Positions 8,958 to 18,656 of a stretch of 50,262 nucleotides of DNA are shown piece by piece; the stretch's first letter is position 1; each line of letters opens with the position of its first letter. Both the position numbers and the translations under genes were made by a program. Source of the stretch: Methanomassiliicoccales archaeon (GTDB taxonomy: Archaea > Thermoplasmatota > Thermoplasmata > Methanomassiliicoccales > UBA472); contig JAPKYJ010000019.1 in the NCBI GenBank assembly GCA_026394375.1, forward strand, positions 1 through 50,262. The letters run 5' to 3'. The notes below the pieces were generated by a model. That model worked only from the letters and a program-made list of their open reading frames with translations. It ran no database searches and had not been told where the DNA came from.

Positions 8958-10070
8958 CTAATCTGCTTTTCTCCGGGTGCGCAGGTACATGAGAAAGCTC
9001 ACCTCCTCGCTCAAACGTATCTTGCGCAGCTCCTCGGCATCCCCTTTCTTGATCAATGCCAGGGCGAGCGGCTGTCCCCGGGTGAGCATGTAGATGAGCT
9101 GGAAAGCTTCGTCATCGATGTCCTCCCCCACCAGCCTCCGGGCCATGGCCTCATCGAAGCGATGCACGTGCACCTCGACGGCGGAGCCGTCAACCAGATC
9201 GCGTTTCTGGTAGAAACGGTTGTACGAGGGCGTCTCTTCGCGCATGGCCACAGCCATCTTCGCCGCCCCTCCCTTCAACGCCTGAAGGAGGTCGAAGAGC
9301 ACATCGACGTTCTCCTGGCTTACGTCGTTGTAGTTATCGAAGCACAACAACACCCGCTCATTCCTGAGACGGTCCAGCTCGCCTTCCAGGCCCAGCTGAC
9401 TGGCGTAAGACCTCAGTGCCTCGACCAGCTTGACCGAGGAGCTCTCCTTCTCCAGGTCGTGCCAGAACAGGTGTCCGTCCCATAGCTCCAGGGCGAGCTT
9501 CTTCATGAACGTGGACGAACCGTAGCCATAGTTCGCGAAGACGGCGAGCAAGGTCGCGTCCGAATGGACGAACCCTTGGGCCGTCCGCAGCTGTTCCTCC
9601 CGCCCGAGGAAATCCTCGAGCCGCAGGGGGGCGTTCGAGGTGACGAGCTTCTTAATCGGCGGAAGGCGCATCTCCCGCCCAACGGAATCGGCGACCGTGA
9701 GGGCCGGAAGATCGGTCCGCAAGGCGAGCAACTCGCGAACCGTCGTCATCCTGCGCCCGGACGAATCGACGACCACCAACTCCTCGTCCCCGATGCTTCG
9801 TATCACATCCACCGCGTTCGCCAATCCTGCCTCGGTGAGCTTGTAGAAGATGAGCTTGCGCTCCTTGCCGGATACGTGGCCCTTGTCCTGTTCTACCAGT
9901 CCAGCATCCACCAGGGGGCGCAGGGTGCGGGTGATGTGCGTGCGGTTCACTCCCAGCGCCAAGGCGATCCCTTCCTGGGTGATGGCCTCCGAAGGCCTCT
10001 CCCTCATCTGTTCTCTTCGGGCATCGTAGAGGTGCAGAAGCGCTCTCTCGCGCGGCGACAGCGGCGGCAT
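8958..10070 (-). CDS. Winged-helix regulator fused to an NTPase-like domain with degenerate Walker A
   Basis: A 370-residue protein. The first 90 residues are a MarR/winged-helix DNA-binding domain (AITQEGIALALGVNRTHITR, then LVEAGLVEQDKG-like wing). Residues about 150-365 resemble the STAND/archaeal ATPase fold. The loop FANYGYGSSTFMKKLA occupies the Walker A position but lacks the usual GK[ST]. ERVLLCFDNYND looks like Walker B. The frame is open to 10211; the ATG at 10070 begins directly before the HTH, and a TATA-like ATTATTATC lies near 10096-10104 on the minus strand. It is divergent from the giant surface protein and could regulate it (inference). Confidence 0.75.
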   Translation of the reverse strand: MPPLSPRERALLHLYDARREQMRERPSEAITQEGIALALGVNRTHITRTLRPLVDAGLVEQDKGHVSGKERKLIFYKLTEAGLANAVDVIRSIGDEELVVVDSSGRRMTTVRELLALRTDLPALTVADSVGREMRLPPIKKLVTSNAPLRLEDFLGREEQLRTAQGFVHSDATLLAVFANYGYGSSTFMKKLALELWDGHLFWHDLEKESSSVKLVEALRSYASQLGLEGELDRLRNERVLLCFDNYNDVSQENVDVLFDLLQALKGGAAKMAVAMREETPSYNRFYQKRDLVDGSAVEVHVHRFDEAMARRLVGEDIDDEAFQLIYMLTRGQPLALALIKKGDAEELRKIRLSEEVSFLMYLRTRRKAD

Positions 10071-10218
10071 AGCTGCCAGCACTATCGGGGCGGAGGATAA
10101 TAATTGTGCGCACGCGATTCTTGGTTCGGCGTCCGGGCTGAGCAATCGGCAAGCCGGGCCAGTCGCTTCTTCATGGCACGTTCTGGGGATTCCCAGGTGG
10201 GTAATTACCACAGAATCA

Positions 10219-10288: not shown

Positions 10289-13200
10289 ATGCAACAGTTG
10301 AAACGCAGATTGAAGTGGAGCCGGAGAGGAGTGTCCGAGATCATCGGGAACATCCTCATCCTCGGCATAACGGTGACGCTGTTCTCGAGCATCATGTGGT
10401 ACGTGGTCTCGATGCCGCCACCGCAAGAGAACGCGTACGCGGACTTCTCCTCGCAGGTCTACATTAATACGCAAGTGATTCCCGCCCAAGTGCAGATCAA
10501 CATCACGCATAAAGGCGGACAAGAGCTCAAGAACTCCTCCTCTGCGCTCTATTTGGAATTCAACAGTAAGCCTTATGTGCTCCGCATCTCCGACAGCTCG
10601 CCCAGCATCGGGTCCACCTGGGTGACCGGCGAGACATGGCGCTACGGCTTCGACATCCTTCTGGGTGAGGATCCCCACGGGCCCATGAGCATTATGATCG
10701 TGGATACGGTTCGCAACACCGTGGTCTGGACCGCCACGCTCTCGGGAGGGGCGGTCGGCGGCGGCGTCAAGCCGATAATCGGTGCTCGGGGAACGACCCC
10801 CATACCATCCTACGCTGGTGATCCCCTTTGGTTCTACGTCACGGTGACGGACCCGGACGGCGATCTCAACCGTAACAGTGTGTATGTTGACCTTGCGTCG
10901 ATCGGGCAGTGGAACCCGGCGACCAGCAACTACTCCTGGAAGATGACCGACAGCAACAACGACAACGTGTTCACGGTTGGCACGTACACCCCCCCGATAG
11001 ACAATAACAACTGGAATGGGGAAATCGTGATCTTCAATGCCACCGACCTGAACGGGCACATGGAGGTCGGCAGGCTGACACTGAACATACAGCTCAAGCC
11101 CGGCGGAGGGAGCGAAAACAGCTACGGACCGTACATCAACTACTCCCATTACCTGGTGAACGGAACCTATCCACCCGATGCGAGCGGAGGCGAGGCCGGT
11201 CCGTCCACGGGCACCACTTTCTACTACATCCGCCGCTACTCGGATAACGTAATCACTAAGGACTTCGTCGTGGGAGAGAGGGTGCTGGTTGAGGTCTACT
11301 CCGACGCGCTAGCCAACCTGGCGCTGGAGAACGCCTTCTACGTCTTCGACCCTATCTTCGGTGAGCCCGTATCCCCCCAGACCAAGCTCACAGATGCATT
11401 CCAGTATGGTGGCATCTACGGTACATTCCATCGTTACGTCTACAACTTCAGCGCGCCCAGCAACCCCTACATCTACCCGTTGCAGATGAAGATGAAGGAC
11501 TCCACTGGCACTACCATCAACCTGGCCGACACGATCAGCATTGGGGGTGCCAACTACCCCAAGCTGGAGACGTACAAGTTAGTGAGCGGTAGTCTGGTCA
11601 AGACGTCGAACTTCAACCACACCGACACCATGTACCTGAGGATAGTGACCATGGACGTGGACCGCCTGTCCAGCACTGTCTACTTGAGCGACCTCGAGAT
11701 CTCAGACTATACTGGCCGCTACATCGTCAAGAAGGTACCGCCATCCTACGCCAGCCCACCGGCATATAGCGCGCCGATAAGCTCGCTCTACAAGACGTCG
11801 GGCACCAGCCCCACGCCGGATTGCGAGAATACCAACAACGGGGTGTATACGGTCTACGTCGTGCTCAAGGACGCCTACCAGGGTTGGTGGCTCCCGAAGA
11901 AGAACGCCTACACCATGAAGATCCTTAGGATAACAGATACTGGCACGGGCGGATCCACCGCTGAGGTCTACAACTTCCTGAACATGCAGATCAACGTCAC
12001 CGCCCCTCTGAGCACAACCGACCTGATAGCGACCGTGGGGTCCGGCACCTTCACCTGGAGCTCCTCGGGTGCCACCTGGACCAACAATAAAGTCTCCTGG
12101 TACTCAGGCGGGGAGCAGTGGGACGAAACGGTCATCGATGATAATCCCAACGCTGGATGCATCGGAATAGCACTCGCAGACCTCAGCGGCGATGGCAGGA
12201 ACGACGTGGTCATCGGCAGCCAGGATAGCACCTATGCGAACCTGATTTGGTATGAGAATCAGAAGGCGGATGGCAGTCAATGGTCGTCCGGCCGTCCGAT
12301 CGCCATGCCATTTGATGCTATTGCGGGTACGCAGGCCGCCCACGACAATGACAAGGGATATGACAACGAGGACTCGAGCGTATTCTCGACGCAGGACGGG
12401 GACCGCTTCCAGACCACGTACACCTGCAACATGGAGCTCGTGGGCGCCATCGCGGTCGGTGATTTCGACCACGACGGGGACGGGGACGTGGTAGCCAGCT
12501 TCATCCACGTGGTGGTGTACTCGACAGCGACGAGCGAGGCCGACGCGCGCGCCAACCCCGGCAAGAACCAGGGCATGTACTTCAACCGGGGCGTCTATGT
12601 GTTCTGGAACGACGGACTATGGACGCGCACCACCTTGTACTCGACCGACACCTGGATAGCGAACAACGAAGCGAACAAGGACACCAACCCGGCGGCCATG
12701 GACCTGGCGGTGGGCGATTTCGATCGCGACAATTATCCGGACATCGTGGCTGTGTACGAAACGGGCGCGACCAAGGTGTGGCTGAACCAGTGGGGAAAGA
12801 TAACGGGCGACGCGACCGCGCATCGGAACGGAGCGTTCGCGGTCGCATCCTACAGGAACCTAGCTGCCCTGCCGGCCGCTGACTCGACGCTCCCCTGGGA
12901 CCACGTTCAGTACATCCCTCGCGTGCGCGTGGCGGACATGAACCTGGACCAGTATCCGGACATCATCCGCACCAACACCAAGAGCAAGAGCGTGAGCATC
13001 CTGTATACCATTCCGGGAGTTCCGGACGAGATCATCAACACGCCGCAGTACGAGTACCCGGCGGCTGGCAGCACGACGCCCAGTCGTACGGGGTCCATGG
13101 CCAACCTGGCCATCGCCGACGCTAGCTACGAGGTTCTTAGGGAGACATACCTGAACTACACTCCTACCACTGTCATACCCTCAATGCAGAGCATGCTCGA

Positions 13201-14506
13201 CACTACCGGTTGGCTTAACACGGACCGGCTCAAGTACAACGACTCAGTGGACTACAATGTCGGCACTGGCGCGCTAAACACGCTTTGGATAACCTACTGG
13301 GATGTCGACTCGTTCTACTCTGGAAGGGTGGCGGCGGAGGTGAAGGTGATCGCAAAGTTCACGGTGGACTCTGGCTACACTGGCAGCAGCAAGCTACAGT
13401 GGTCATACGACGGGTTCACATTCTATGACACCACCATCCAGCCGACTGGCTCTGATACGTCGTACGTGTACCGCACCTTCATCCTGCCCAAAGCGGTGGA
13501 CACCTTCGGCGAAGTGCAGAGCCTGGACTTCAAGTTCGTGAACAACGACGGAACGACCCATAAGGTCAACTTCGACTTCCTGAACCTGCAGGTCACCTTC
13601 GTGCAGACGAGGGAGATGGGTTGGGTCTGGCAGATACCGAACCAGAACCGGGCCTTCCACAACATGACCTTCGTCGGTCACCGCTCTGGCACCACGGCCG
13701 AGACCTTCCGGCTGGCATACTCAGTGGACAACATCACCTGGTTCAACCTGACGGACATCACCGCCATTACGGACGTGACCTTGCAGTTCGACCTCACCTA
13801 CACCCCTAGCGCCTACTACTGGGTGCGAGTGGTAGATCTGATAAGGGACACGAGCGACGTGTTCAACGACACGCTCTACGTGGATAAGCTGACCATCAGG
13901 CACTTCGCTTTGACGGTAAGCTGGGATCTGGCTCACACCTACAAGATACCATGGACCGGGCCCGACTATCTGACCGCCTTTGCGGTGGGAGATGTCGGTC
14001 ATATCGGCACCGACTATAAGGCGGACGGCATACCGGACATCGTGGTCTCGACAGCCCGTGTCGGTTCAGGGTATGATACGCAGACCTTGTACATACTGAC
14101 CCAGGGCTCGATAGGCTCCTACAGCGGCTCCTTCACCCCCAACGCCGTCTACACCACGCAGATGTCCGTGCTCTGTTCCAACAGCGCCCAGTATGACACC
14201 AAGGCGGTCGAGCTGGGAGACAACGACGGCGATGGGGACTTGGACATAGTCGTGGTGGTGGGCGCGCCGCCCGGCGTTTCGCCCGGCGCCGGTCCGACCA
14301 TGTGGTCCTACATGAACAACCAGCAGTTCGCCCCGGGTGTGTGGCAGTTCGGAGAGAGCTACGTGAACGTGCTCGCGTCCAAGGGCGAATCGGCCATCAA
14401 CGTGAAGGAAGGCAACATCGACCTGTCCATCTTCCTGCCGTTCTTGGGCGTGCTGGGCGTGGTGGTCGCTGAGGCGGTCGTGAACCGGAAGGGAAAGCGC
14501 GAGTAA
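10289..14506 (+). CDS. Giant surface protein: type IV pilin-like N-terminus, FG-GAP/VCBS repeats, C-terminal anchor
   Basis: A 1405-residue exported protein. The N-terminus (RRGVSEIIGNILILGITVTL) looks like an archaeal type IV pilin signal: a basic stretch, a short cleavage-type motif, then a hydrophobic helix. A long extracellular region of beta-sandwich character follows. Calcium-binding FG-GAP/VCBS-like units recur near residues 622 (LADLSGDGRND), 713 (VGDFDHDGDGD), 804 (VGDFDRDNYPD), 876 (VADMNLDQYPD), 1228 (VGDVGHIG) and 1305 (DNDGDGDLD). The C-terminus has a hydrophobic helix (FLPFLGVLGVVVAEAVV) and a basic tail. It may act in adhesion or cell-envelope structure; the partner is unknown. 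Its size is far beyond ordinary pilins. Confidence 0.85.
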   Translation: MQQLKRRLKWSRRGVSEIIGNILILGITVTLFSSIMWYVVSMPPPQENAYADFSSQVYINTQVIPAQVQINITHKGGQELKNSSSALYLEFNSKPYVLRISDSSPSIGSTWVTGETWRYGFDILLGEDPHGPMSIMIVDTVRNTVVWTATLSGGAVGGGVKPIIGARGTTPIPSYAGDPLWFYVTVTDPDGDLNRNSVYVDLASIGQWNPATSNYSWKMTDSNNDNVFTVGTYTPPIDNNNWNGEIVIFNATDLNGHMEVGRLTLNIQLKPGGGSENSYGPYINYSHYLVNGTYPPDASGGEAGPSTGTTFYYIRRYSDNVITKDFVVGERVLVEVYSDALANLALENAFYVFDPIFGEPVSPQTKLTDAFQYGGIYGTFHRYVYNFSAPSNPYIYPLQMKMKDSTGTTINLADTISIGGANYPKLETYKLVSGSLVKTSNFNHTDTMYLRIVTMDVDRLSSTVYLSDLEISDYTGRYIVKKVPPSYASPPAYSAPISSLYKTSGTSPTPDCENTNNGVYTVYVVLKDAYQGWWLPKKNAYTMKILRITDTGTGGSTAEVYNFLNMQINVTAPLSTTDLIATVGSGTFTWSSSGATWTNNKVSWYSGGEQWDETVIDDNPNAGCIGIALADLSGDGRNDVVIGSQDSTYANLIWYENQKADGSQWSSGRPIAMPFDAIAGTQAAHDNDKGYDNEDSSVFSTQDGDRFQTTYTCNMELVGAIAVGDFDHDGDGDVVASFIHVVVYSTATSEADARANPGKNQGMYFNRGVYVFWNDGLWTRTTLYSTDTWIANNEANKDTNPAAMDLAVGDFDRDNYPDIVAVYETGATKVWLNQWGKITGDATAHRNGAFAVASYRNLAALPAADSTLPWDHVQYIPRVRVADMNLDQYPDIIRTNTKSKSVSILYTIPGVPDEIINTPQYEYPAAGSTTPSRTGSMANLAIADASYEVLRETYLNYTPTTVIPSMQSMLDTTGWLNTDRLKYNDSVDYNVGTGALNTLWITYWDVDSFYSGRVAAEVKVIAKFTVDSGYTGSSKLQWSYDGFTFYDTTIQPTGSDTSYVYRTFILPKAVDTFGEVQSLDFKFVNNDGTTHKVNFDFLNLQVTFVQTREMGWVWQIPNQNRAFHNMTFVGHRSGTTAETFRLAYSVDNITWFNLTDITAITDVTLQFDLTYTPSAYYWVRVVDLIRDTSDVFNDTLYVDKLTIRHFALTVSWDLAHTYKIPWTGPDYLTAFAVGDVGHIGTDYKADGIPDIVVSTARVGSGYDTQTLYILTQGSIGSYSGSFTPNAVYTTQMSVLCSNSAQYDTKAVELGDNDGDGDLDIVVVVGAPPGVSPGAGPTMWSYMNNQQFAPGVWQFGESYVNVLASKGESAINVKEGNIDLSIFLPFLGVLGVVVAEAVVNRKGKRE

Positions 14507-14556: not shown

Positions 14557-15732
14557 TTGCACGAGGTCATCGTCTCCGGATCTGGACCGAGCGAATCGTT
14601 CGCTGCCCGTCTGCTAGCCCAGCGAGGGTTGGACGTAGTGCTACTAGAGAAGGAGCATCATCCCCGTCCGAAATGCTGCGCTGGGGGCCTGCTCCTTCGA
14701 GCGGCAAGGAAGCTCGACTTCGAACTTCCGGAAGAGATCGTGGAAAAAAGGATCTCGCGTTTGAGGTTGGTCTCAGGCGGGGACGCGGCGGAGCTCCGGG
14801 CGACGGGGCAGTTCGCACTGACCATCAAACGGGAACGTCTGGACGAGCTCATGGCGCAAAAGGCAAAGGAGGCGGGGGCGGAGCTTCTGGAAGGGGTCAA
14901 GGCCCTGGACGCGCATCAGGATGCTGCATCCGTTGCCGTGACGACCACGGCCGGTGAGATGCGCTGTCGCTACTTCCTGGTGGCCGAAGGGACTACTAGC
15001 CTGAACGCCGATCGCCTTTTCGGTCGGTTCGACCGTAGGAGGGTGGCCGTGGGAGGGGCCATGCGCATGAAGCTGCAGGAAGAGCCGGACGATGCCATGG
15101 AGGTGCATTTCTTGCCCCATCGTTCCGGCGTCCACGGGACAATGCCTCCGACGGCCGCCGTCTTTCCATATCGAGGCGGAGCGACGGTATCTCTCGTGGC
15201 CAAGGGCCTTGATGGGGAGACGATTCGCGCCGTGCTCTCTAAGGTGGGGAAGGAATACTCATCTCGGTTCGGGCGAGCTTTTGACGATACAGAATCGTGC
15301 TTCCATAAGCTGCCTCTTTGGATCAGGCCGAAGCTACGCAACGGACGTTGCTTGGCCCTAGGCGACTCGGCGGGCTTCGTTAGCCCGTTCTCTGGCGAGG
15401 GCTTGACCCACGCCCTGGAGAGCTCCAGGTTGGCGGCGCTGGCCGTGGTGAACGCTCGCACCGAAGGCAACGCCCGGAGCCTCGCGCTCTATGAAAGGAC
15501 CTGCTGGCGCGAGATCGTAAGAAGGATGCGGGCGACTGCGATCCTCGGACCAGTGGTAAGGTCGGTATCGCGTCGGATCGACGTAAGGGAATTGGCGCGA
15601 GCGCTGGATGAGGACGAGTTGTTGCGAGACAAGCTGTCAGGGCTTCTGGATGGCAGAAGCGGGGCATTGGAGGCGTCAGCGGTCATGATGGCCAAGTTCC
15701 CGAGGTTGATGCCCCGGCTGAACATCCGTTGA
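14557..15732 (+). CDS. Geranylgeranyl reductase family flavoprotein (paralogue 1)
   Basis: A 391-residue FAD-dependent reductase of the family that saturates geranylgeranyl chains of archaeal lipids or isoprenoid quinones. It has an N-terminal dinucleotide-binding fold, the PRPKCCAGGL motif, and GDSAGFVSPFSGEG near residue 270. The first loop reads GSGPSES instead of the usual GxGxxG, so one conserved glycine is missing. A near-perfect ribosome-binding site (GGAGGTG, 14547-14553) selects the TTG at 14557 rather than the TTG at 14542. It lies 48 bases ahead of a paralogue, so the two likely share a transcript. Confidence 0.88.
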   Translation: MHEVIVSGSGPSESFAARLLAQRGLDVVLLEKEHHPRPKCCAGGLLLRAARKLDFELPEEIVEKRISRLRLVSGGDAAELRATGQFALTIKRERLDELMAQKAKEAGAELLEGVKALDAHQDAASVAVTTTAGEMRCRYFLVAEGTTSLNADRLFGRFDRRRVAVGGAMRMKLQEEPDDAMEVHFLPHRSGVHGTMPPTAAVFPYRGGATVSLVAKGLDGETIRAVLSKVGKEYSSRFGRAFDDTESCFHKLPLWIRPKLRNGRCLALGDSAGFVSPFSGEGLTHALESSRLAALAVVNARTEGNARSLALYERTCWREIVRRMRATAILGPVVRSVSRRIDVRELARALDEDELLRDKLSGLLDGRSGALEASAVMMAKFPRLMPRLNIR

Positions 15733-15780: not shown

Positions 15781-16971
15781 GTGTACGACGTCATTGTCTC
15801 GGGGGCTGGGCCGGGAGGAGCATGCGCGGCCAGGGGATGTGCCCAGCTCGGCCTCTCCACCTTGTTGCTGGAAAAGGGCCAGCTACCTCGGGTCAAGTGC
15901 TGCGCCGGAGGGCTGTTGCAGCGCGCTCTGAACCATCTCGACCTCCAGTTGCCCGATGATGTCGTGCAGCGGCAGATAATGGGCTTCGCGGTGGAGGTCG
16001 GAGGTCAGAGAGAGGAGTTCAGCTTCTCCCGCCGCGTGGGGGTGACGGTGCGGCGGGCGCAGTTCGATCATTTCCTGGCGAAGCAGGCCGTGAGCGCCGG
16101 GGCCGAGCTCATGTCTGGCACAGCCACGAAAGAGGTCTGTGAGCACAAGGACCGAGTGGAGGTGGAGACCGAGGCAGGCGTTTTCCAGGCGCGCTTACTC
16201 ATCGTGGCCGAGGGCGTGAGCAGCAGAACGGCCCGGAAGCTCTTCGGGCCTTTTCCTCCCTTGGCTCTGGCCACGGGAATGGCGGCGAACGTGTCAACGG
16301 AGAGAGATCCCGGGGACAAGATCGAGCTGCATTTGATTGACACACCTACCCGGGGACTGCATTGGGATCGCTTTCCGCTGAACGGCTGGATGTTCCCTCA
16401 GCGCGACGGTGCCAGCATCGGAATCGTAGGTCAGGGAAGCAGCAGGGAACGTCTGAACGCGTCCATGCGTGCGATCATGGAGAAGCTGGAAGCCCGCTGC
16501 GGTCCGGTCGTCACCCTGGACAGGAGCGCACATCCTTTGCCGTTCCGTCCCCGACCCCGCCTCCACTCCGTTCGTTCCATGGCCGTGGGGGACTCCGCGG
16601 GCTTCGTCAATCCTATCACCGGAGAGGGGATGGGATATGCTTTCCTGAGCGCTCATCTGGCCGCCCGGACGGCGCGTGCCGTGGTGGACACGGAGAGCGT
16701 GCGGGCGCTGGAGCTCTATGACCGCAGCTGTCAAGAACAGATACTGCGCGACCTGCGCGCAGCGGCGCTGATCGGACCGGTCCTGCATTGGCTGGTGGGA
16801 GTGGTGGACGCTCCCCGGTTCTTCGGGCGCTTCAAAGAGGACAAGGCATTGGTGGAAGTGTGCGCGGACATCGCCCGAGGTGAGGCGGATTGGCGCCGCC
16901 TGGCTCGCCTGGCCGGCCCCCGGTTCCCCCGCCTTTTCTTCTCTTCTCTGGAACCGATCAGAACAAGCTGA
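15781..16971 (+). CDS. Geranylgeranyl reductase family flavoprotein (paralogue 2)
   Basis: A 396-residue FAD-dependent reductase starting at GTG 15781 (VYDVIVSGAGPGG, translated with Met first). It has an intact GAGPGG loop, PRVKCCAGGL, and GDSAGFVNPITGEGMGYA. The paralogue upstream has the same architecture, indicating an old tandem duplication. The likely substrate is the prenyl chains of archaeal ether lipids, or of a prenylated quinone or phenazine given the neighbouring UbiA gene; sequence alone cannot decide. The last 14 bases overlap the end of the convergent UbiA gene. Confidence 0.92.
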   Translation: MYDVIVSGAGPGGACAARGCAQLGLSTLLLEKGQLPRVKCCAGGLLQRALNHLDLQLPDDVVQRQIMGFAVEVGGQREEFSFSRRVGVTVRRAQFDHFLAKQAVSAGAELMSGTATKEVCEHKDRVEVETEAGVFQARLLIVAEGVSSRTARKLFGPFPPLALATGMAANVSTERDPGDKIELHLIDTPTRGLHWDRFPLNGWMFPQRDGASIGIVGQGSSRERLNASMRAIMEKLEARCGPVVTLDRSAHPLPFRPRPRLHSVRSMAVGDSAGFVNPITGEGMGYAFLSAHLAARTARAVVDTESVRALELYDRSCQEQILRDLRAAALIGPVLHWLVGVVDAPRFFGRFKEDKALVEVCADIARGEADWRRLARLAGPRFPRLFFSSLEPIRTS

Positions 16972-18634
16972 GGTAACGCAAGGCCGCATATGCCAGGCCT
17001 ATCAAAGCCACCAACAGCACCGGACGAGAGCTCATGGAACGGGCGAACAGCACCGCCGCCGCCACCCCCAGGGCTGGGAACACCAGTATGTCGCTCAGCT
17101 GGTGGAAAAGGAAGAGCGGAGTGAGCGAACCGGCGTAGATCAAGGCGGAAACGAGCTTCGTCGCTCTCTCCTTTCCCAGCACCGTGTAGATCGTGCGCAC
17201 GTTCCCACGCCGGTCCTCATCGTAGCCATCGATGTCCGTCACTATCGATCCGATGACCAGGCCGAGGAACATGAAGAAGCCCAACAGGAAACCCTCTGGC
17301 ATGAGCTGAGGCACGAGCACGTCGCCCGTCAGGTAAGGATAATAGATCCCTCCTTGCGTGAACTTCTCCACCACGCTGTAGGGGGTGAGGTAGCCGTAGA
17401 GGTAGGCCAAGAAGGCACCCAGGCCGATGAGCACCGGGCTGAGCAGGTGTTCCTTGAAGCGCACCGGCTTGAACGAGTAGACGAAGGCCAGTACCAAGAT
17501 GACCAACAAGATCAAGCCCTGGAGCAGGGACAAGAGGAATGAAAGGATGACGCTGATGATTACCAGAACCATGGATATCTGCCAAAGGAACCTCGCTTCC
17601 ACCGTGCCAGAGGCCACCAGCCGGTCCGGGCGGCTCGGCTCGTCGGAGGCGGAATCACTCAGATCGTTCCACATGGTGCTCACTTGCCAGGTCAAGAGGG
17701 CTGCGATGATGGCGGTCCCCGCGAAGCACAGGTTGACCCAGTAGGGAGTCGTCAGAATCATCGTCACCAGGTCCAGGCTGTATCCCAGACGCCAACCGGT
17801 GACGATCCCGGCCGCCACCACCCCGCCGAAGAACAGCGTCTGCGCGGGTCGCATGCTGCGCAGCACCCGCCGGAACTCGGACTTCATGGCGAAGTAGTAG
17901 ATGGACAGAGCCACCACCTCTCCGCCCACCAGGTAGTAGAGGAGCAGGAAGAGATGGAACTGGTAGTAGCGGGTTAGGTCGAACGCCGGGAACTCCGGAA
18001 TGCCGCCCTTGAACCCCACAGGCAGGAAGGCCCCGGGCGTGGCCATGATGAACATGGCTAGGAAGGTGAAGAATACCAGGAAGCAGACTCGCACCAGGAC
18101 GATGGTACGACCTTTGAGCGTTGATAAAGCGGTTCGCTGGGTCCAGATGCCGTAGGCGAAGATGGCGAAGAGCACCACCACCACTTCGCTCGCTTGACCG
18201 ATGTGGAAGCCCTCCCCGCTGAAATGCAATATGGCGTTGACAAAATCGGTTATGGAGAAGTACGCATAGTTCTGATCGAGCCCACCAATGTAGTGGTCGA
18301 TGATGGGCGGCAGCACGATGATCCAGTAGAACATGCAGACGAAGTTCGTGCATCGCCTGACCCCTCTTCCCGAGAAGGCGGAGAGGAGGAAGATGAGACC
18401 GAGGAAGACCACCACATAGAAGGCCACGTGATGGGCGATGCTGAATATCCATGGATGGGGCGCGGTCACGAAAGGCTGGTCCAGCAGGAAATACTCCAAG
18501 AGATCGCGGGTCGTGGCGATGGCGATCACGTACACGAAGATGGCGAGGAGGGGCAAACGGTCCTTCTCCAGCCAAGCGACGAACCGGTCCACCCTTTCGG
18601 CGAAGCGCTGCTCAAAGCCATCCTCCCCTGGCAT
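16958..18634 (-). CDS. UbiA-type prenyltransferase with an extra N-terminal membrane domain
   Basis: A 558-residue polytopic membrane protein. The C-terminal half (from about residue 285) is a UbiA prenyltransferase: the first Asp-rich motif is NDLSDSASD near residue 322 and the second is DIDGYDED near 466. Together they bind Mg-prenyl diphosphate. The N-terminal half has six or more hydrophobic segments and no motif I recognise. Ordinary UbiA proteins have about 280-300 residues, so this is a fusion or long extension. The start is ATG 18634 or TTG 18637; a TATA-like TTTATAG at 18657-18663 supports a leaderless start there. Convergence with two geranylgeranyl reductases suggests one lipid pathway (inference). 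Confidence 0.85.
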   Translation of the reverse strand: MPGEDGFEQRFAERVDRFVAWLEKDRLPLLAIFVYVIAIATTRDLLEYFLLDQPFVTAPHPWIFSIAHHVAFYVVVFLGLIFLLSAFSGRGVRRCTNFVCMFYWIIVLPPIIDHYIGGLDQNYAYFSITDFVNAILHFSGEGFHIGQASEVVVVLFAIFAYGIWTQRTALSTLKGRTIVLVRVCFLVFFTFLAMFIMATPGAFLPVGFKGGIPEFPAFDLTRYYQFHLFLLLYYLVGGEVVALSIYYFAMKSEFRRVLRSMRPAQTLFFGGVVAAGIVTGWRLGYSLDLVTMILTTPYWVNLCFAGTAIIAALLTWQVSTMWNDLSDSASDEPSRPDRLVASGTVEARFLWQISMVLVIISVILSFLLSLLQGLILLVILVLAFVYSFKPVRFKEHLLSPVLIGLGAFLAYLYGYLTPYSVVEKFTQGGIYYPYLTGDVLVPQLMPEGFLLGFFMFLGLVIGSIVTDIDGYDEDRRGNVRTIYTVLGKERATKLVSALIYAGSLTPLFLFHQLSDILVFPALGVAAAVLFARSMSSRPVLLVALIGLAYAALRYLSLF

Positions 18635-18656
18635 CAAGACATGCAGCCCCTACTGG

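Follow-up and report, generated by a model that had tools for sequence, protein, structure and literature searches.

We describe here a gene encoding a putative giant modular pilin of 1405 residues in a Methanomassiliicoccales archaeon (assembly GCA_026394375.1). The window analyzed is one entire contig (JAPKYJ010000019.1; 50,262 nucleotides) of a 1.73 Mb genome with an estimated completeness of 99.8%. A GGAGG Shine-Dalgarno sequence lies about 10 nt 5′ of the ATG of the giant gene, which is flanked by a divergent regulator gene on one side and by two geranylgeranyl-reductase-family genes and a convergent UbiA prenyltransferase gene on the other (Table 1). The open reading frame (ORF) is real and conserved, and far from chance, because full-length orthologues with 41-58% identity keep the frame open in many genomes of the order; the named relatives identified by sequence are Methanomassiliicoccaceae or unclassified Euryarchaeota metagenome-assembled genomes. 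A first-pass annotation, made from the letters of the window alone, had noticed a pilin-type export signal on an FG-GAP protein with a separate C-terminal membrane helix. Our results reach beyond that view in three respects: the first ~150 residues constitute a whole pilin, the architecture is found across the archaeal class, and its double-anchored form occurs together with genes for geranylgeranyl reductase and UbiA. The ~1,250 residues that follow the pilin module comprise immunoglobulin (Ig)-like domains, an integrin-like FG-GAP propeller with a jelly-roll insert and the C-terminal membrane helix.

A complete type IV pilin module and its machinery

Pfam places Pilin_N at residues 13-90 of the giant (41.7 bits against a cut-off of 25.2, E = 2e-10), on the same chain as FG-GAP_3 (47.5 bits, four stretches) and FG-GAP (42.1 bits), a combination that marks a modular pilin. 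No Pfam family beyond these three was found on the chain, and the NCBIfam model arch_flag_Nterm scores 17.1 bits, under its cut-off of 20. Hydropathy delineates two hydrophobic helices, at residues 14-32 and 1380-1398. The first of these follows a basic leader, and the predicted class III cleavage site ([GA]-VS[DE], cut at the dash) has Gly or Ala at −1, Val at +1, Ser at +2 and Asp or Glu at +3 in all 34 giants. Among the giants, the leader has a mean pairwise identity of 25% and the mature helix one of 74% (the highest of all regions compared), with 35-53% elsewhere, which is the pattern expected of a throw-away leader followed by a constrained assembly helix.

The likeness to pilins continues past the signal into a helix and a beta-stranded head. 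A profile of residues 1-620 matches the solved archaeal pilin 8gi2 over residues 11-147 (E = 1.4e-5), as well as the solved archaeal pilins 9myg and 8fj5, and two genomes of the order (G010 and G013) encode the pilin module alone (~150 aa) at the same chromosomal site and among the same neighbours. The N-terminus of the giant is a complete archaeal type IV pilin module, more than a pilin-like signal; judged on sequence and predicted structure, the chain qualifies both as an archaeal type IV pilin and as a modular pilin. The pilin-type signal claimed by the first-pass annotation is hence genuine, with Pilin_N over its cut-off and a conserved class III site pattern, but the resemblance is wider than the annotation had it, spanning about the first 150 residues. 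In the short pilins (seven distinct, e.g. L018:7307-7738) mature position +3 is Pro (AVSP or GVSP), as against the acidic residue of the giants, and this residue might serve as a marker of major versus giant pilin roles.

The genome also encodes the cognate peptidase and a pilus ATPase with its TadC platform. A prepilin peptidase carrying both Asp motifs (SDWRTR and GGADAK) scores 48.7 bits with Arc_PepC_II (cut-off 29.9); with Peptidase_A24 the same protein scores 26.4 bits (cut-off 26.5), and it was missed by that family alone at E 0.001 and recovered with the archaeal C-terminal family. Three VirB11-type ATPases, TadC-like partner genes at two loci and an ordinary pilin of 143 aa complete the set, so that the absence of pilin genes or peptidase on which the earlier reading would have foundered is not observed. 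The first pilus locus (L017:6883-13274) encodes a pilin-like protein of 330 aa (GVASTVG) beside two VirB11 ATPases and two TadC genes, and a gene for a CARDB giant surface protein of at least 2154 aa with a zinc-ribbon tail (L017:13435-19899) is convergent to the pilus operon. The second, separate locus (L019:3068-6564) holds one ATPase and a fused TadC-like gene. Across the 147 genomes of the order, a TadC platform orthologue is present in 42 of the 44 genomes with the giant's N-terminus, the other two being 67% complete, and one genome that is 99% complete (G016) lacks pilins, TadC, peptidase match and giant together. The peptidase family is wider than the giants (123/147 genomes).

A propeller, probably split, on an Ig-like stalk

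The AlphaFold model of residues 585-1405 has a mean predicted local distance difference test (pLDDT) value of 82 and a predicted template modelling (pTM) score of 0.68, and Foldseek matches this propeller region to the FG-GAP propellers of integrin alpha-V, ITFG2 and CRTAC1 and to the jelly-roll pairs of reelin and CBM22. The FG-GAP repeats carry the Asp-rich calcium loops of a beta-propeller. Two FG-GAP clusters had been marked earlier at residues 620-890 and 1228-1310, and this layout is correct: the calcium-loop motifs fall within them and beta-sandwich sequence lies between. Most simply, the two blocks would form one propeller broken by the jelly-roll region (~901-1225), and this insert probably resembles a ligand-binding module. 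Six loops were counted; the model, with its pTM of 0.68, carries a large insert, and the Foldseek matches are to partial propellers. The giant is like integrin alpha-type propellers (alpha-V, ITFG2, CRTAC1) in its FG-GAP repeats with calcium loops and in its fold-level matches, but its FG-GAP blocks are split by a jelly-roll region of ~325 residues and joined to a pilin. Homology to complement C3/C5 or to SiiE, proposed by whole-model Foldseek matches of residues 1-620, was rejected, as these matches reflect serial Ig-like domains.

Three states at one chromosomal site

Three states of the locus occur between the same flanking genes, cyaB/CPBP on one side and u233/HTH (helix-turn-helix)/CDC48 on the other. 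In type A, the gene for a ~1400-aa protein with a C-terminal helix precedes one or two geranylgeranyl reductase genes, and a gene for a 559-aa UbiA is convergent with these; type B encodes ~1250 aa, with neither the C-terminal helix nor the reductase and UbiA genes; and type C encodes the pilin alone. Some type-B assignments concern contig-end fragments classed by identity (G133, G138, G145, G146). The idea that type B is a frameshifted type A with its tail in the next ORF was rejected by reading the downstream frames.

Type-A C-termini share the juxtamembrane consensus GESxINVxxGNIDL, followed by a membrane helix and a basic tail. The helix is present in 20/20 intact type-A proteins, and hydropathy bears out its position in the giant as a separate C-terminal element; type B lacks it, as do the class-wide relatives whose C-terminus is intact. 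None of 21 type-A C-termini has a PGF motif before the helix and no match to archaeosortase TIGR04178 over cut-off was found in the 147 genomes, on which grounds archaeosortase (PGF-CTERM) processing of this C-terminus was rejected. The arrangement is nonetheless reminiscent of the Haloferax archaeosortase substrates with PssA/PssD (PMC7157517), which likewise have a C-terminal helix and basic tail and are genetically tied to isoprenoid-lipid enzymes; here, in contrast, no archaeosortase was found in the order, the PGF motif is missing and the enzymes are others (geranylgeranyl reductase and UbiA).

In most type-A loci, from five families, a same-strand geranylgeranyl reductase gene lies close 3′ of the giant. 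Genome-wide, the long UbiA is found in 26/26 type-A genomes and in 0/11 type-B/C genomes; the one extra genome with it, G139, has only a short fragment of the giant. The type-A state changes seven times on a tree built from seven neighbouring genes, at least six of these changes being forced by well-supported branches, and UbiA presence, coded by hand for this test from genome-wide search results, switches the same way as type A in 6/6 independent pairs. In one genome (G126, L052:6606-15085) a type-B and a type-A giant occupy the site as a tandem pair, with reductase and UbiA after the type-A member. The ~260-aa N-terminal membrane domain of the UbiA protein has no Pfam family match and contains invariant H-P-W, S-I-x-H-H, P-P-x-x-D and T-P residues; an exosortase-like role for it is unsupported, as a catalytic cysteine was sought and none is invariant. 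In the window, 77 bp separate the winged-helix/STAND ORF from that of the giant; the gene is found, in divergent orientation, in five loci (the window, L047, L049, L057 and L067) and in none of the others compared; its product is a candidate controller of the giant gene.

The family extends well beyond the order. At E <= 1e-8, the residues 1-620 profile detects relatives in 221 of the 400 class genomes; the matches fall largely in the first ~260 residues, and the listed ORFs range from ~180 to ~2670 aa. The genome's own short pilin does not match this profile at that threshold, which indicates that ordinary major pilins do not make up this number, although unlisted weaker matches were not read singly. 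The search for such proteins in related archaea that the first-pass annotation had recommended was thus productive, and the examples from other families join Pilin_N to FG-GAP or to CARDB. No C-terminal membrane helix was seen in 18 class-wide relatives read, so far as their C-terminus is intact. Outside the order, G157 has a tandem pair of giants headed by pilin modules (~2196 and ~1780 residues), and one of the pair carries a CARDB domain (L090:611-12621). Besides the CARDB protein next to the pilus operon, a second further giant surface protein, a 2090-aa FG-GAP protein (L020:930-7199), has an N-terminus that is not pilin-like.

Table 1. Features of the giant gene and its neighbours, in window coordinates
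Feature	Coordinates	Strand	Remarks
Putative giant modular pilin gene, 1405 aa	10289..14506	+	ATG start
Class III leader, residues 1-14 (MQQLKRRLKWSRRG)	10289..10330	+	Predicted prepilin-peptidase cut after G14
Mature N-terminal pilin helix, residues 15-43	10331..10417	+	AlphaFold helix 13-41; 74% mean pairwise identity
Pilin head, beta strands, residues 44-152	10418..10744	+	AlphaFold strands 51-152; profile match to 8gi2; encoded alone in G010/G013
Ig-like beta domains, residues 153-611	10745..12121	+	AlphaFold pLDDT mostly 70-90; Foldseek matches to multi-Ig adhesins such as SiiE
FG-GAP propeller, first part, residues 612-900	12122..12988	+	Calcium loops near 631, 725, 809, 882
Jelly-roll-type insert, residues 901-1225	12989..13963	+	AlphaFold pLDDT ~90 over much; Foldseek matches to reelin repeats and CBM22 pairs (whole model)
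FG-GAP propeller, second part, residues 1226-1350	13964..14338	+	Loops near 1233, 1309
Conserved juxtamembrane stretch GESAINVKEGNIDL, residues 1366-1379	14384..14425	+	Alignment of 21 type-A C-termini
C-terminal membrane helix and basic tail, residues 1380-1405	14426..14503	+	Hydropathy 2.29
Geranylgeranyl-reductase-family gene 1	14557..15732	+	~50 nt past the giant's stop; own Shine-Dalgarno; TIGR02032 146.9 bits, under cut-off 158.8
Geranylgeranyl-reductase-family gene 2	15781..16971	+	TIGR02032 187.9 bits, over cut-off 158.8
559-aa UbiA prenyltransferase	16958..18637	-	PF01040 69.9 bits at 291-532; conserved WNDxxD and DxxGYxED motifs
Divergent winged-helix/STAND regulator	8958..10211	-	PF13545 27.6 bits (cut-off 27); PF25199 24.2 bits (under cut-off 34)

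Proposed role and relation to known systems

Modular pilins have been surveyed in bacteria, where the longest member has 860 residues and where the bulky module grafted onto PilB was modelled as compatible only with the pilus tip (PMC8179133). The giant shares with PilB and PilC of Streptococcus sanguinis a complete N-terminal pilin module followed by a bulky module, metal-binding or lectin-like in those proteins (PMC8179133), but it has the archaeal Pilin_N instead of the bacterial N-methyl signature, adds a second, C-terminal membrane anchor in type A, and is far larger (1405 aa here and up to ~2670 in relatives, against 860). It also recalls the PilC/PilY1 tip adhesins and the DUF2341 proteins that have been suggested to correspond to them in archaea (PMC4858521), large pilus-associated surface proteins of beta-propeller or PilY-like type that are suggested adhesins. 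PilY1, however, is a non-pilin with a propeller of family IPR008707, whereas the giant's propeller is covalently joined to a pilin, and no IPR008707/PilC-type propeller was found in it. A census of archaeal pili lists large adhesins, S-layer-like (surface-layer-like) proteins and minor pilins (PMC4858521), and a targeted search of its main text returned no mention of FG-GAP, propeller or multidomain. No description of FG-GAP or modular pilins in archaea was found in the open-licence papers searched, a scope that does not prove absence.

We propose, with a probability of about 0.6, that the gene encodes a giant archaeal modular pilin that works with the TadC/VirB11 machine of this genome as a minor pilin or surface adhesin. 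The chain would be inserted in the membrane and its class III leader cut after Gly14 by the Arc_PepC_II-type peptidase, the trimmed chain then engaging the pilus machine. In relatives with a single anchor (type B and the majority of the class), the pilin helix could be drawn out of the membrane and the pilus would then bear the propeller, probably at or near the tip by analogy with bacterial modular pilins. In type A, the C-terminal helix would keep the other end in the membrane and argues against the chain leaving it on a growing pilus unless the tail is removed. This second anchor makes it more likely that type A stays at the cell surface tethered at both ends, as a looped surface adhesin or a pilus-base component, and makes filament display doubtful. 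The filament-tip position offered by the first-pass annotation hence fits the giant poorly, while the class III pilin N-terminus on which it was founded stands.

Several observations weigh against the proposed pilus role. The giant gene, judged by its surroundings in the window, lies outside pilus operons; the C-terminal helix is hard to square with filament assembly; the Foldseek matches are to multi-domain models with low overall template modelling (TM)-scores; and the shared distribution of giants and pilus genes goes back largely to a single deep split (f1-f5 versus most of f6), which means fewer independent events than genomes counted and renders their association supportive, not decisive. 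Gene position and the conserved type-A helix would also suit an S-layer-like or envelope adhesin that uses a pilin N-terminus taken over as no more than a membrane signal. Such a protein would be held in the membrane by its two ends and have no contact with the pilus machine, and its coincidence with pilus genes would reflect a shared surface lifestyle. Large C-terminally anchored proteins are indeed listed with archaeal pili as S-layer-like components (PMC4858521), and eight TadC-positive genomes, most of them incomplete, lack the giant. We nevertheless consider such an adhesin unlikely, for the whole pilin fold is conserved and not just the signal, the mature helix is 74% identical while the leader is free to vary, single-anchored relatives predominate in the class, and the giants follow TadC. 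That the N-terminus is a plain uncut signal anchor, alike to pilins through convergent hydrophobic sequence, would agree with the subthreshold arch_flag_Nterm score and with a cleavage that is predicted only, but it is highly improbable in view of the Pilin_N match, the invariant site pattern, the homology to solved pilins through the head and the peptidase in the genome.

A functional tie between the reductase and UbiA genes and the type-A form is likely but unproven, because their co-switching could stem from exchange of a linked cassette without functional coupling, and linkage within the exchanged block could give the same pattern. In that event the two enzymes would make an unrelated isoprenoid product and switch with the giant through recombination of the whole block between conserved flanks, an account to which we would give somewhat less than an even chance. 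It draws on the placement of all states between the same flanking genes and on the convergent UbiA gene lying outside the giant's operon; it is opposed by the finding that no genome keeps one partner alone (the sole extra being the genome with a fragmentary giant), by the reductase gene closely 3′ of the giant in nearly all type-A loci of five families, and by the tandem locus, which has a type-B gene upstream yet retains the order of type-A giant, reductase and UbiA. In Haloferax and Methanosarcina, genes for lipid synthesis that adjoin a sorting peptidase turned out to act in C-terminal lipid anchoring (PMC7157517), and with this precedent a lipid role of UbiA and reductase merits testing. 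The two might synthesize or attach an isoprenoid lipid that takes the place of the C-terminal helix or adds to it, an archaeosortase-independent anchoring that would fix the giant at the surface and convert a releasable type B into a permanently tethered type A. We regard this specific scheme as speculative and rather improbable.

A whole archaeal class carries pilins extended to giant surface proteins. Taken with the bacterial modular pilins, these class-wide giants make the grafting of modules onto pilins look like a strategy of two domains of life, with larger sizes attained in archaea. The presence at one site of a pilin alone, a single-anchored giant and a double-anchored giant constitutes a natural experiment on the graft and on the second anchor, and the strict link of the double-anchored form to isoprenoid-lipid enzymes offers a lead on surface-protein anchoring in archaea that have no archaeosortase.

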